DNA of 64,000 bases from Thioalkalivibrio sp. AKL19 (GTDB taxonomy: Bacteria; Pseudomonadota; Gammaproteobacteria; Ectothiorhodospirales; Ectothiorhodospiraceae). Position numbers and translations under genes: made by a program. The stretch is from positions 1-64,000 of the forward strand of contig NZ_ATUK01000010.1 of the NCBI RefSeq assembly GCF_000420165.1. Direction: 5' to 3'. This document shows positions 41,727-64,000 of the stretch, piece by piece. The notes beneath the pieces are model-generated. The model saw only the letters and a program-made list of their open reading frames with translations, searched no databases and had not been told where the DNA came from. How positions within the stretch are numbered: the stretch's first letter is position 1; every line of letters starts with the position of its first letter.

Positions 41727-42042
41727 TAGGGAAACACTGATTAATGTACGCGCTCGCGCTCGAGTCGCTTTTGCGTGCGAACAAGGCGCGATGAGTGAAG
41801 TGTAGCCGAGCTACATAAGCGAGCCACAACGCCGGGCGCACGCCCGTTTTCGACAACAACTGGCGGCCGAGCCCTTGCTTTCAAGGGTTTGTGGGGTTGG
41901 CACCCCGGGTTCCCCGATCCTGCGTTGCGCCCCGAAGTCATCAAAAACGGGCGGGTAGAACCACTACCCGCTTCGCGACGCGCCTTGTCTCGGAAAACCT
42001 GGGGTACCAACGCGAGTGTGTACATGGATCAGTGTTTCCCTA
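41727..42042. mobile_element. MITE-like TIR element, copy 1 (between uvrC and pgsA)
   Basis: The 316-bp unit runs from TAGGGAAACACTGATTAATG to ATCAGTGTTTCCCTA. The end inverted repeats cover at least 25 bp (GGGAAACACTGAT, ATGTAC, CTCGCG). It is about 80% identical to copy 2 (58175-58493) over its length. TA (or CTAG) is repeated at both edges, consistent with a target duplication. The uvrC stop codon TAG is formed at one edge. A 94-codon frame inside is shared with copy 2 but differs mainly at amino-acid-changing positions. Confidence 0.8.
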
Positions 42043-57559: not shown

Positions 57560-58177
57560 GTGTCGCTTACTGAACGCCAGCAGGCCATCCTCGACTACAT
57601 CGCCGAGACCGTCGCCACCCAGGGCACGGCGCCGACCCGCAGCGAGATCGCCCGGGCCTTCGGCTTCCGCTCGCCCTACGCGGCCGAGTGCCACCTGAAG
57701 GCCCTGGAGAAGAAGGGCGCGATCGAGCTGCTGGGCGGCACCTCCCGCGGCATCCGCCTGCCCGGTGCCGCCCGTGGCGCACCGGCCGAACTCCCTCTGG
57801 TCGGGCGCGTCGCCGCCGGCTCGCCGATCCTCGCCACCGAGCATATCGAGCGCCACTACCGGGTCGACGACGCCCTGTTCCGCGGCCGCCCGGACTATCT
57901 CCTGCGCGTACACGGCGAGAGCATGCGCGACGCCGGCATCCTCGACGGCGACCTGCTGGCCGTGCGCCAGACGCCGGAGGCCCGCCCCGGCCAGATCGTG
58001 GTCGCCCGCATCGAGGACGAGGTCACCGTCAAGCGCTTCGCACAGGACGGCCCGAAGGTTCGCCTGCTCCCGGAGAACCCCGACTTCCGCCCCATCGAGA
58101 TCGACCTCGAGCGCCAGGACCTGGCCATCGAGGGCATCGGCGTGGGCGTGCTGCGCGATCTCGAACCCCAGACCTAG
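57560..58177 (+). CDS. lexA: SOS repressor LexA
   Basis: The 205-residue repressor has an N-terminal winged helix ([24 protein letters not shown]) and a C-terminal S24 self-cleaving domain with cleavage site A86-G87, nucleophile S121 (GESMRDAG) and K158 (VTVKRF). Start is GTG 57560. Its stop TAG is created at the edge of the second TIR element. The link to imuA-imuB is the same as in the lexA2 mutagenesis cassette of pseudomonads. Confidence 0.93.
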
Positions 58178-58493
58178 GGAAACACTGACTCATGTACACA
58201 CTCGCGTTGGCACCCCAGTTTTTCCGAGACCAGGCGCGTCGTGCAGCGGGTAGTGGTTCTACCCGCCCGTTTTTGATGGATTCGGGGCGCAACGCAGGAT
58301 CGGGAAACCTGGGGCACCAACCCCACAAGCGATTGAACGACGGGGCTCGGCCGCCCATTGTTGACGAAAACGGGCGCGCGCACGGCGTTGCGGCTCCCTT
58401 GTGCAGAATGACTGCACGGCGGCGGTCACCGCGCCTTGTTCGCACGCAAAAGCGACTCGAGCGCGAGCGTGTACATGAATCAGTGTTTCCCTA
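58175..58493. mobile_element. MITE-like TIR element, copy 2 (between lexA and imuA)
   Basis: The 319-bp unit runs from TAGGGAAACACTGACTCATG to AATCAGTGTTTCCCTA. It lies in the same orientation relative to gene direction as copy 1. Its first three bases are the lexA stop codon and its last base is 4 bp before the imuA ATG. Edges are CTAG and CTAA, so a TA duplication fits both copies. Confidence 0.8.
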
Positions 58494-58497
58494 AGCC

Positions 58498-59130
58498 ATG
58501 GGCGCGCTGGATACCCTGCTCGACCACCCGGCGCTCTGGCGCGGCCGCAGTGCCATCCCGGCCCCAAATGCCCCGGTCTGGCCCAGCGGCCATGCGGAAC
58601 TGGACCGGGCCCTGGGCGGCGGCTGGCCGCGCGGCCAGCTGATCGAACTGCTGGGGGCCCCGTTCGGCTGCGGCGAGACCCGGCTGCTGGTCCCCATGCT
58701 GGCCGCCTGCGGCCGTGACGGCTACTGGATCGCGGTGATCGCGCCCCCGGCCACGCCCTGGCTGCCGGGCTGGCAGACGCTCGGCATCCCGCCGGAACGG
58801 GTGCTACTGATCCGCACCGAGCACGACCGCGACACCCTGTGGGCCGGGGAGCAATGCCTGCGCGACCCGGCCTTTGGCGTGCTGCTCGCCTGGCTGCGCC
58901 GCCCCGTGGAGACGGCCCTGCTGCGCCGGCTGCGCCTGGCCGCGAGCGAAAGCCGGGCCTGCGCCATCCTGTACCGGCCACCGGACGCCGCAACACAGCC
59001 CTCGCCGGCCCACCAGCGACTGCGTTGGCAGTCCGCGGCTTCCGGACTGGAACTGCACTGCCTGAAGGGGGCCGGCCACTGGGCCCGCTCCGGCCACCCC
59101 CTGCGGGTTCCCGAACCGCCGGAGGCCTGA
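58498..59130 (+). CDS. imuA: ImuA, SOS mutagenesis accessory protein
   Basis: The 210-residue RecA-like protein has GHAELDRALGGGWPRGQLIE and a P-loop-like GAPFGCGETRLL, the usual ImuA N-terminus, but the Walker A is altered (GxxxxGET instead of GKT), as in the family. ImuA works with ImuB and DnaE2 in translesion synthesis. It ends 1 bp before the imuB start. No clear ribosome site is seen because the TIR element ends right at the gene. Confidence 0.85.
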   Translation: MGALDTLLDHPALWRGRSAIPAPNAPVWPSGHAELDRALGGGWPRGQLIELLGAPFGCGETRLLVPMLAACGRDGYWIAVIAPPATPWLPGWQTLGIPPERVLLIRTEHDRDTLWAGEQCLRDPAFGVLLAWLRRPVETALLRRLRLAASESRACAILYRPPDAATQPSPAHQRLRWQSAASGLELHCLKGAGHWARSGHPLRVPEPPEA

Positions 59131-61329: not shown

Positions 61330-61677
61330 TCACCGCGATCCGGCGTCCCGCCATGCCGCGTAGCCCCCGCGCAGGACATACGCCTCGATCCCCATCGCCC
61401 GCAGGTTGTCGGCCACCAGCTGCGAACGCCCACGCCCCCCGCAGAACACCACGACCGGCTGGCCGGGACCACTCATGCTGGACTCGATGGTCGCCTCGAG
61501 CTTGGGCCGGGGGATATTGATCGCGCCCTCGATGGTCCCTGCGGCGGCCTCCTCCGGCTGGCGCACGTCCACCAGCAGGAACGGCTTCCCGGCCTCGCGC
61601 CAGCGCGCCACCTCAGCCGGGTCCAGATGCGGCAGGCTCTGCTCCAGATCGCTAATACGCTTCTCGAAAAGACTCAC
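61330..61677 (-). CDS. Rhodanese-like sulfurtransferase
   Basis: The 115-residue single rhodanese domain has the entry strand FLLVDVRQPEEAAAGTIEGA, catalytic C79 in the loop CGGRGRS and the closing LRGGYAAW. A six-residue active loop of this size is typical of sulfur rather than phosphate transfer. It is the last gene of a run of four same-strand genes under the FNR-type site, so sulfur transfer to or from the thioredoxin and lipoyl proteins upstream is an inference. Confidence 0.88.
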   Translation of the reverse strand: MSLFEKRISDLEQSLPHLDPAEVARWREAGKPFLLVDVRQPEEAAAGTIEGAINIPRPKLEATIESSMSGPGQPVVVFCGGRGRSQLVADNLRAMGIEAYVLRGGYAAWRDAGSR

Positions 61678-61723
61678 GGACGGACTCCGTATGGTGGGTG
61701 CGCCCCCATTCTATCGCGCAGGA

Positions 61724-62392
61724 TCAGAGGGAGGGGCGCACCAGCAGGGGAAACACCCGCAGGGTGAACAGCGCGAGTCCGACCAGGGCCGCTGCCGCAC
61801 CGATTGCGGTCAGCATGGCCGCCCCCATCATCCAGCCAAGTCCCATGCCCACAACCGCCAGATGCACCAGGACCTGCGGCGCCCAGGCCCACAGCCAGCC
61901 ACCCGCGATCGGGTGGCCGGTAAAGCGCGGCAGCATATGCTCGCCAAGCCCCATGATCAGTAGCAGGAGGAACCCGAGCGTAAAGCCGTGCAGCGCGGCC
62001 GGGCGCGCCGCGCCCTCGAGGAAGAACCCGCCCAGTGGCAGTGCCGCCCCCGCGATCAGCAACCAGGCCATCGCCCCCAACACCGAGGCACGGCTGGAGC
62101 CCGACAGGCCCAGACCGACATGACGCACTGCCTTCTGAGTGCGTTCCGGGGCCTCCTCCACCAGCTCGGTCGCGGCCGTGCGATCCAGCAGCCCGATGTG
62201 CTTGAGCTCGCCATCGACCACCACGGCCGGGATCGAGCGGATGCGCAGCCGGGTCGCCAGCTCGCGCCCTTCGGGCTGGCCCATGTCGACCACCGCGAAG
62301 TCGATCTGTTTGTGTTCCGCAACCTCGCGCCAGATGCGCTCGGCATCGTGGCAGGAGGCACACCATTCGGATACCAGCAGCTCTACCTTCAT
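61724..62392 (-). CDS. Thioredoxin-fold domain fused to a CcoN-like membrane domain
   Basis: The 222-residue protein has a thioredoxin domain (about 1-80) with the dithiol motif in EWCASCHD (C11, C14, H15) and cis-proline SIPAVV, followed by four membrane helices (about 105-215). The membrane part carries LHGFTLGFLLLLIMGLGEHM and LPRFTGH, matching the small membrane protein at 62867-63268 (GxGxHxLPRFxG). The histidines are placed to bind heme or metal. I do not recognise this fusion as a named family. Confidence 0.75.
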   Translation of the reverse strand: MKVELLVSEWCASCHDAERIWREVAEHKQIDFAVVDMGQPEGRELATRLRIRSIPAVVVDGELKHIGLLDRTAATELVEEAPERTQKAVRHVGLGLSGSSRASVLGAMAWLLIAGAALPLGGFFLEGAARPAALHGFTLGFLLLLIMGLGEHMLPRFTGHPIAGGWLWAWAPQVLVHLAVVGMGLGWMMGAAMLTAIGAAAALVGLALFTLRVFPLLVRPSL

Positions 62393-62411
62393 AAATCGGT
62401 CTCCCCTGGCC

Positions 62412-62864
62412 TCAGTCCGCGCAACGCATGCAGTGGATGTCGTAGCGATCGATCCATTGCTTGAGCCCCGTGATCGCCTCGGATCCGGTATGCAGCCGTT
62501 CCAGGGCTTTTTCCGGGTCGTCGGGGCGCATCACGACCACCCAGGCATCCGTGTAGGGCGCCACGTTGACCAGCCCCGGATCCGCCTCCACGGCCGGATT
62601 GATACGTTCGATCGTGCCATCGAACGGGGTCGGGATACCGCCGGCCCACTTGCCGGACTCCAGCCGCGCGACCGGCTTGCCCGCGGCGCGGTGCGAACCC
62701 GGCTTGCGAAACCGGAAGTACTGCACCCGCCCCGCCATGGTCTGGGCGGGATCGGTAATCCCGAGGGTGAAGGTCCCGTCGTCCTCCGGGCGCACCCAGA
62801 CATAATCCAGGTCGTAGAACAGGTCGTCGGGCAGCTCGCAGCCGTTGTATTCCTCGCGTGCCAT
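62412..62864 (-). CDS. GcvH-like lipoyl-carrier protein (LbpA-like)
   Basis: The 150-residue protein has the H-protein layout: LDYVWVRPEDDG, ITDPAQ, VQYFRF and ARLESGKWAGG with lipoyl lysine K72, then PFDGTIERIN and YTDAWVVVM. The ESGKW form, instead of ESVKA of true GcvH, resembles the LbpA lipoate-binding proteins of the sHdr sulfur oxidation pathway. No gcvT, gcvP or sHdr genes are nearby. A CMRC pair sits at the extreme C-terminus. It starts 2 bp after the upstream gene and 19 bp before the thioredoxin fusion. Confidence 0.82.
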   Translation of the reverse strand: MAREEYNGCELPDDLFYDLDYVWVRPEDDGTFTLGITDPAQTMAGRVQYFRFRKPGSHRAAGKPVARLESGKWAGGIPTPFDGTIERINPAVEADPGLVNVAPYTDAWVVVMRPDDPEKALERLHTGSEAITGLKQWIDRYDIHCMRCAD

Positions 62865-62866
62865 GG

Positions 62867-63268
62867 TTACGCCCCCTTCGGACCATAGTGGCGCACGGTC
62901 AGCGCAATATTCAGCGCAAACAGGATCATCGCACCCCAGGCCATCGCACCGCCGATCGCGACCGTCATGTTGTGGAACAGCAGCCAGCCGGCGACCATCA
63001 CCCACAGCCCGACATTCGCCAGCAAGAACTGCACGTGCCCCAGGCGTTCGGAAAACAACGACCGCCCGGAAAAACGCGGCAGCACATGCAGACCCACGCC
63101 GTAGATCATCATGGTCACGAAACCCAGCAGCATCAGGTGTCCATGGATGCGCGGCACGTTGCCGGGGATCAGTCCGGGCTGCGCCAGCCACAGGATGCCG
63201 AGGAACCCGCCCAGCAAGGCATAGATCAGGGCCGCGAGAATGAACATCCGGTTACGAGGGTGCATCAA
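62867..63268 (-). CDS. Small CcoN-like membrane protein
   Basis: The 133-residue protein has four membrane helices and looks like a fragment-sized relative of the heme-copper oxidase subunit I (CcoN/NorB type): RIHGHLMLLGFVTMMIYGVG followed by LHVLPRFSG. There is no room for the full heme-copper core. A heme-binding or quinone-linked electron role is an inference. GGAG lies 10 bp before ATG 63268. It is the first gene of the operon and lies 53 bp from the FNR-type box. Confidence 0.75.
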   Translation of the reverse strand: MMHPRNRMFILAALIYALLGGFLGILWLAQPGLIPGNVPRIHGHLMLLGFVTMMIYGVGLHVLPRFSGRSLFSERLGHVQFLLANVGLWVMVAGWLLFHNMTVAIGGAMAWGAMILFALNIALTVRHYGPKGA

Positions 63269-63320
63269 AGGCTCCAGGGCAGGTTTCGCACAGCATACTT
63301 TAAGCTATATTCAATTTACA

Positions 63321-63334
63321 TTGATCGAGATCAA
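63321..63334. promoter_or_regulatory. FNR/Dnr-type operator
   Basis: TTGATCGAGATCAA is a perfect TTGAT-N4-ATCAA site between two divergent genes. On the minus strand TATGCT near 63292-63297 would be the -10 element with the box near -41.5. FNR (oxygen) or Dnr (nitric oxide) proteins recognise this sequence. Confidence 0.82.
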
Positions 63335-63365: not shown

Positions 63366-63947
63366 ATGTCTCCCGAGCACCATGCGAAGGTCCGATACCC
63401 GATGCACGAGCAACTCTACGAAAGCGTTCCCGGATTCCAGCAGCCCATCGAGTTGCTGCGGGCCTGTCACCGCCGGATCCTCAACTCCCTGGATATCCTC
63501 GAGCGTCTGCCTGCGCATCTCGCCGAAAAGGGTGCCGACGAGGAGGCGCGCACCGCGGCGCAACGGGTACTGAACTACTTCCACGAGGCGGCCCCCAACC
63601 ACCACGCCGACGAAGACGAGGACCTGTTCCCCGTGCTGCGCCAGCACTGCGGTCACCCCGAGAGTCACCCGCAGCTGTGCGAGTGGCTGGACCGCCTGAC
63701 CGCCGAGCACGACGAGATCGAGACCGGCTGGGACCGGCTGGAACCGGCCCTGGAACGCATTGCCCACGGCAAGGTTACGGACCTGACCGGGGCAGAGGCC
63801 TGGATCCGCCAGTACCGCATCCATCTCGATCTCGAAGAGCGCGCCGTCCTGCCGTTCGCCGAGTACCTGCTGGGTCCGGATGAACGCCGCACCATCGGGG
63901 CCTCCATGGCCGCGCGACGCGGTATCGGGAATCCCGGGCATGGCTGA
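63366..63947 (+). CDS. Hemerythrin HHE-domain protein
   Basis: The protein of up to 193 residues is an all-helical hemerythrin-like domain with ligand candidates in RACHRRIL, NHHADEDEDLFP, AEHDEIE and IHLDLEERAVLPF. Such proteins bind a di-iron centre and respond to oxygen or nitric oxide, or help repair iron-sulfur clusters. ATG 63366 is used; ATG 63402 (MHEQLYESVPGF) fits the family start and the FNR-box distance slightly better. It overlaps the next gene by 8 bp. Confidence 0.85.
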   Translation: MSPEHHAKVRYPMHEQLYESVPGFQQPIELLRACHRRILNSLDILERLPAHLAEKGADEEARTAAQRVLNYFHEAAPNHHADEDEDLFPVLRQHCGHPESHPQLCEWLDRLTAEHDEIETGWDRLEPALERIAHGKVTDLTGAEAWIRQYRIHLDLEERAVLPFAEYLLGPDERRTIGASMAARRGIGNPGHG

Positions 63948-64000
63948 CTTTGTGCTCGACCTGCGCGGGCTCGCCGAGCATGCGCATACCCGCGCCTACT
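63940..64000 (+). CDS. Start of an unidentified gene (cut by window edge)
   Basis: An ATG at 63940 overlaps the end of the hemerythrin gene and opens a frame (MADFVLDLRGLAEHAHTRAY) running out of the window. The overlap suggests coupled translation in the same operon. Twenty residues are too few to identify it. Confidence 0.45.
   Translation, partial: MADFVLDLRGLAEHAHTRAY

Follow-up and report, generated by a model that had tools for sequence, protein, structure and literature searches.

The window, by which we mean the whole 64-kb stretch of DNA analyzed here, contains four open reading frames that follow one another on the minus strand with intergenic gaps of 2, 19, and 46 bp. The first encodes a small membrane protein with four transmembrane (4-TM) helices, called MEM here (62867-63265, 133 aa; ATG start, with a TTG at 63268). 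It is followed by a lipoyl-domain protein (62412-62864, 150 aa), a thioredoxin fused to a membrane domain (61724-62392, 222 aa), and a rhodanese (61330-61677, 115 aa; Pfam Rhodanese 64.7 bits). On the plus strand, and divergent from these genes, lie a hemerythrin-like gene whose start codon is uncertain (63366-63947; Hemerythrin 62.4 bits) and the beginning of a DUF2249-hemerythrin gene (63940-64000), which runs past the window end and is the same as L043:5941-6660 (DUF2249 35 bits, Hemerythrin 53 bits in Pfam). The divergent promoter region holds an FNR/DNR-type box, TTGAT-CGAG-ATCAA (TTGATCGAGATCAA, 63321-63334), and a putative -10 hexamer on the minus strand, TATGCT (63292-63297), lies about 30 nt from the box center, which would place the box at about -41.5. 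These coordinates and gaps confirm the initial annotation with respect to the four same-strand genes, the perfect TTGAT-N4-ATCAA site that precedes them, and the hemerythrin gene that diverges from them.

In regard to conservation, the unit consists of three genes, to which the rhodanese is a lineage-specific addition. Wherever the loci examined carry a full-length fusion, the MEM, lipoyl, and fusion genes stand side by side in this order, and this synteny extends to many loci outside the AL-type Thioalkalivibrio, to several other gammaproteobacterial families, and to a Burkholderiales bin (L076). The window itself is from an AL-type Thioalkalivibrio close to strain ALE14, and T. versutus AL 2 and T. 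thiocyanoxidans ARh2 have the module too. The rhodanese stands behind the core in nine of ten AL-type Thioalkalivibrio loci, the tenth being at a contig end, and is absent from the other three-gene loci. Thus, the expectation of the initial annotation that all four families would co-occur elsewhere holds for the three-gene core across families and fails for the rhodanese, which keeps to one Thioalkalivibrio lineage. Because it is missing in the other three-gene loci, the rhodanese is ruled out as a step that the module needs, and the claim that it is the first member of a sulfur relay is not supported. A chain in which the rhodanese loads sulfane sulfur on the lipoyl protein, the thioredoxin exchanges it, and electrons pass into the membrane is accordingly unlikely, although in its favor stand the gene behind the module in AL-type Thioalkalivibrio, a 48% identical rhodanese about 4 kb from the lipoyl protein gene in genome G217, and the capacity of dihydrolipoate to take sulfane sulfur from rhodanese, as cited in PMC6067878.

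The three-gene module is real and conserved. The notion that it is a chance neighborhood of unrelated genes has nothing but small gene size in its favor and can be dismissed with near certainty, being refuted by the synteny, the fusion, and the box, all conserved across families. The module also appears to be undescribed: the open PubMed Central article texts searched contained no description of the three-gene unit, in keeping with the earlier statement that no system of this composition was known, and a paper on the arsenite transcriptome of Thioalkalivibrio does not mention the module genes. Two partial loci were seen as well. In G044, an apparent deletion relic joins the start of MEM to the end of the lipoyl gene beside a hemerythrin gene (L049:4821-5088), and in G192 a MEM gene occurs without the lipoyl protein, in a region that also holds a hemerythrin-like gene and a gene cluster for cytochrome d1 (L127:3539-14000).

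The FNR/DNR-type box is the sole match in the window at one mismatch or fewer, for a chance mean of 0.49. Among 37 promoters, namely those of the three-gene unit or of a separate thioredoxin gene, 27 have the box at this threshold (14 perfect, 13 with one mismatch), and the box mostly precedes the first codon by 57-96 nt. The distance between the box center and TATGCT in the window corresponds to class II FNR geometry for a predicted transcription start, distant genomes have -10-like hexamers at a similar offset (TATTCT in L069 and L074, TATCAT in L114), and class II spacing is found in several promoters. No recognizable box was found at core loci L070 and L075, nor at the T. halophilus locus (L073), whose neighbors are an Rrf2 gene and the flavohemoglobin gene hmp. 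The window genome encodes an FNR-like protein (L179) with the N-terminal cysteine motif ACQHCTLRQLC and a later cysteine. In relatives, many loci have a Crp/Fnr protein beside the unit, mostly without the N-terminal cysteine cluster, like regulators of the DNR/NnrR type. The FNR-type control put forward in the initial annotation is therefore well founded as a prediction, given that the box recurs in different families, that several promoters show class II spacing, and that the genome encodes an FNR-like protein with the cluster cysteines. Since an FNR-type site fits an oxygen signal and a nitric oxide (NO) signal alike, it cannot separate the two; the module is probably induced at low O2 or by NO.

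The lipoyl protein matches GCV_H with 104 bits (cut-off 22), yet it misses the NCBIfam equivalog cut-off for the glycine cleavage H protein, GcvH (TIGR00527, 79.7 of 115.85 bits), and a GcvH gene is present separately elsewhere in the window genome. LbpA proteins are marked by a lipoyl lysine and one conserved cysteine near each end, the latter absent in GcvH (Cao et al. 2018, PMC6067878). In 20 sequences related to the window protein, K72 (in ESGKWAG) is invariant and aligned with the lipoyl lysine of GcvH, which makes it the predicted lipoylation site, and C9, close to the N-terminus, and C145, close to the C-terminus, are likewise invariant. A further cysteine, C148, is present in all 20 and completes a C145-x-x-C148 motif (C-x-R-C); it is missing from LbpA1 and LbpA2 of the window genome. 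In a maximum-likelihood (ML) tree, GcvH, LbpA2, LbpA1, and the protein of the module form separate groups, with GcvH split off at 100/100, the new clade supported at 94/94, and its union with LbpA1 at 97/92, an exact sister relation that is less sure because of long branches. We gave this third LbpA-like clade the working name LbpA3. The gene sits on contig C10, away from the hdr cluster with lbpA1 and lbpA2 on contig C12 of the same genome, and for this reason we name the protein as a third LbpA-like clade and not as an hdr-cluster LbpA. The initial annotation had already proposed an LbpA-like protein with K72 in the lipoyl position, as the GCV_H match, alignments, and ML tree grouping now bear out.

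Compared with known lipoyl proteins, LbpA3 thus shares its Pfam family with GcvH but falls in a separate clade below the GcvH cut-off. Its likeness to LbpA1 and LbpA2 of the sulfur-oxidizing Hdr-like (sHdr) pathway (PMC6067878; Tanabe et al. 2023, PMC10332631) is closer: all have a GcvH-like single lipoyl domain, a lipoyl lysine in an ESGKW context, and the two conserved cysteines absent from GcvH, and they occur in the same genomes, together with an sHdr-type ligase. Unlike LbpA1 and LbpA2, however, LbpA3 has a C-terminal CxxC, is encoded away from hdr, and comes with its own FNR-type promoter and its own membrane thioredoxin as neighbor.

MEM is modeled with four helices over its 133 residues. 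Pfam COX1 reaches 23.8 of 34.8 bits on it, below the curated cut-off, but an hmmsearch of the PDB with a profile of MEM relatives retrieves CcoN of solved cbb3 oxidases with E down to 9e-11. The match covers the last four CcoN helices, IX-XII, and places H42-x-H44 on the H-V-H of CcoN, the HxH motif of helix X. In CcoN, this motif holds heme ligands. H42-x-H44 and H61 are invariant in the MEM alignment, and MEM is probably a heme-b protein. Despite this homology to subunit I of cbb3-type oxidases, MEM has 4 TM helices in place of 12 and no counterpart of the CuB region, and in the module the 4-TM unit occurs as two paralogs, one of them fused to thioredoxin.

This fusion protein matches Thioredoxin_3 with 38.8 bits (cut-off 25) and carries the motif W10-C11-A-S-C14, the WCxxC cysteines being invariant. 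Its model shows a thioredoxin fold in front of four helices, with a fold match to thioredoxins. The 4-TM domain is paralogous to MEM (hhalign E = 4e-19), and H135 and H152, both invariant, occupy the positions of H44 and H61 in MEM. Both membrane assignments of the initial annotation, a CcoN-like small protein and a thioredoxin joined to a related membrane domain, are upheld by these profile and fold matches. Kinship with CcoN is based on the sequence profile because VIA-align matches to CcoN chains (Z about 7, 20-22% identity) lie within the range that helical bundles reach by chance, and were discarded as evidence. Foldseek with the 4-TM model of MEM gave no significant match. Kinship of the 4-TM domains with NnrS was considered and rejected, as Pfam NnrS scored 14.7 and 10.8 bits against a cut-off of 28 and a comparison with a single NnrS by hhalign gave no significant match. 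Gemmatimonadetes also encode CcoN-like 4-TM proteins that stand alone and share about 34-47% identity with MEM (L078, L079, L080, and L081). The stretches seen around them contain neither lipoyl nor thioredoxin genes, and in two of the loci a second CcoN-like 4-TM gene lies beside a CopD-like gene.

The thioredoxin accompanies LbpA3 in all 18 LbpA3 genomes of the class sample, fused or separate. In G307, G401, G196, and G252 it is encoded on its own (about 80-106 aa) close to the lipoyl gene, and a hemerythrin gene often separates or flanks the two. The arrangement recurs in G725, which does not belong to the class, with a perfect box lying between the divergent genes. The first four genomes as well as G072 and G217 have LbpA3 and thioredoxin, but the stretches examined show no CcoN-like 4-TM gene, and a membrane route is thus not universal. 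Weak thioredoxin-only loci (L128-L134) contained no module when examined. The idea that the small thioredoxins are selenoproteins was dropped, the in-frame stops being terminal stops in the two examined.

Our results link this module to sHdr sulfur oxidation. LbpA3 is found in 18 of 369 genomes of the class at 253-285 bits, with LbpA1 and LbpA2 scoring at most 156 bits, and sHdrB1 is found in 22 of the 369. Seventeen of the 18 LbpA3 genomes carry sHdrB1 (Fisher p = 5.5e-24, with genomes treated as unrelated and kinship uncorrected). The 18th, G380, is 75% complete and has an sHdr-type lipoate ligase at 65% identity; such a ligase is present in every LbpA3 genome tested. On another contig, the window genome carries a complete sHdr operon (tusA, C1, B1, A, hyp, C2, B2, lbpA1, dsrE, lbpA2, lipS1, sLpl(AB), lipT, and lipS2), with the gene order of PMC6382920; the lip genes are named by order and homology, and the 468-aa gene is taken as sHdrB1 by operon order. 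Several sHdr genomes do without LbpA3 (G006, G007, G192, G212, G340, and some Thioalkalivibrio such as G013, G022, and G026), which makes LbpA3 accessory.

Furthermore, additional sHdrB1 copies lie outside the main sHdr operon (L124:1275-2633, L119:3564-4931, L169:7174-8343, and L171:6910-8301), 78-86% identical to sHdrB1 of the window genome and with its cysteines preserved. Two of them, in G217 and G072, stand behind Rrf2-type regulator genes, retain all shared cysteines, and have globin, hemerythrin, DUF2249, and thioredoxin genes as companions; in G072 another copy directly follows LbpA3. The tie to sHdr, the recognition of a third LbpA clade that ends in a CxxC tail, and the Rrf2-linked extra sHdrB1 all go beyond the initial annotation. 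In Hyphomicrobium denitrificans, sHdr regulators strongly affect nitrate respiration (PMC12423496), an effect that fits a coupling of sulfur oxidation with nitrate metabolism.

The surroundings of the module point to O2 and NO. A hemerythrin gene adjoins the core divergently in most Thioalkalivibrio loci, and in different genomes Pfam confirmed Crp, Rrf2, flavohemoglobin, truncated globin, single-domain globin, SirB, NnrS, HemN, NarG, and cytochrome d1 in the vicinity of the unit or of parts of it, with hemerythrins, DUF2249, and nar and nir genes also among the neighbors. In G217, narG and a response regulator lie a few genes from LbpA3, and at L123 a lipoate-ligase gene is two genes away. 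The O2/NO theme of the initial annotation, which had cited the divergent hemerythrin gene in its support, is reinforced by these neighbors and by the DNR-like or Rrf2 regulators among them. The module resembles members of DNR, NsrR, and FNR regulons (hmp, dnrN, nnrS, and others; PMC1274295) in its type of box and in its flavohemoglobin, hemerythrin-like, and NnrS neighbors, but the main text of that work mentions neither a lipoyl protein nor a thioredoxin. Such surroundings, together with the known part of lipoylated proteins in antioxidant defense, as mentioned in PMC10332631, could suggest a general chain for detoxifying peroxide or NO that draws its reducing power from a dihydrolipoyl protein and has no link to sulfur oxidation. 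This is improbable, as LbpA3 is confined almost wholly to sHdr genomes and falls on the LbpA side of the tree. As a separate observation, the module or a lone thioredoxin lies amid molybdenum-cofactor-like genes (moaB, moaC, and moeA, assigned by eye) next to a Crp/Fnr gene at L118, L120, L069, L071, L072, and L074, and the window genome has a moaB-like gene a few kb from the module (L043:9879-10448).

We lean, without great assurance, toward an accessory module of sHdr-LbpA sulfur oxidation that is induced at low O2 or by NO and has its own membrane thiol partner. Gene order, families, the regulatory site and its spacing, sHdr co-occurrence, and conserved residues come from computation; lipoylation, the pairing of thioredoxin with LbpA3, heme binding, the direction of electron flow, and expression are inferences. 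FNR would switch the module on, a task that in relatives may fall to a DNR-like Crp/Fnr protein or an NsrR-type repressor. LbpA3 would then serve as a third lipoyl carrier of the sHdr pathway, with a lipoyl K72 and extra thiols at C9 and C145-x-x-C148. The membrane-tethered thioredoxin would be its redox partner, with dithiol-disulfide exchange at the lipoyl arm or at the CxxC tail, and electrons could pass from it to the pair of 4-TM domains derived from CcoN, in which heme b is probably held. The result would be a route from cytoplasmic dithiols to the membrane when the normal route is O2-limited or damaged by NO. A more specific version, which we hold only tentatively, makes the module a new kind of entry point to respiration, a dihydrolipoyl:quinone-type oxidoreductase induced at low O2 in sulfur oxidizers, with electrons going from the lipoyl carrier via the membrane thioredoxin to paired split CcoN-derived heme-b domains; H44 and H61 of MEM and H135 and H152 of the fusion would then lie near opposite membrane faces.

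Alternatively, and as the main rival, the module may function in repair and protection. NO and its products would alter LbpA proteins at the lipoyl arm and at their thiols, the WCxxC thioredoxin would remove the adducts, LbpA3 and extra sHdrB1 would replace damaged parts, and hemerythrins and globins would handle NO. Adducts derived from NO (reactive nitrogen species, RNS) are known to inactivate lipoic arms in other enzymes (PMC9974485), and this possibility also draws on the NO-defense neighbors, the Rrf2-linked sHdrB1 copies, and a thioredoxin that is the invariant partner of LbpA3 even where 4-TM proteins were not seen. It leaves unexplained the two CcoN-derived membrane domains with conserved histidines and the fusion of one to thioredoxin, and we regard it as possible but doubtful. 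Repair and electron transfer are not mutually exclusive.

Whether as electron route or as repair, the module bears on where sHdr electrons go and why there are several LbpA proteins, and on how a pathway rich in Fe-S and lipoyl thiols withstands low O2 and NO. It supplies named candidates for a third carrier, for its thiol partner, and for an acceptor in the membrane, together with a promoter and with extra sHdrB1 copies by NO-type regulators. In many sulfur-oxidizing bacteria, it ties sulfur oxidation to nitrogen-oxide metabolism at the level of genes, and it may sustain sulfur oxidation when oxygen is scarce or NO is present.

Elsewhere in the window, at 58166-58502 and 41727-42042, we noted two copies of a short MITE-like element of about 320-340 bp with terminal inverted repeats of 25-41 nt (TAGGGAAACACTGATTCATGTACAC). 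One copy lies directly downstream of a lexA-like gene, and the end motif of the element is found in related Thioalkalivibrio loci as well.
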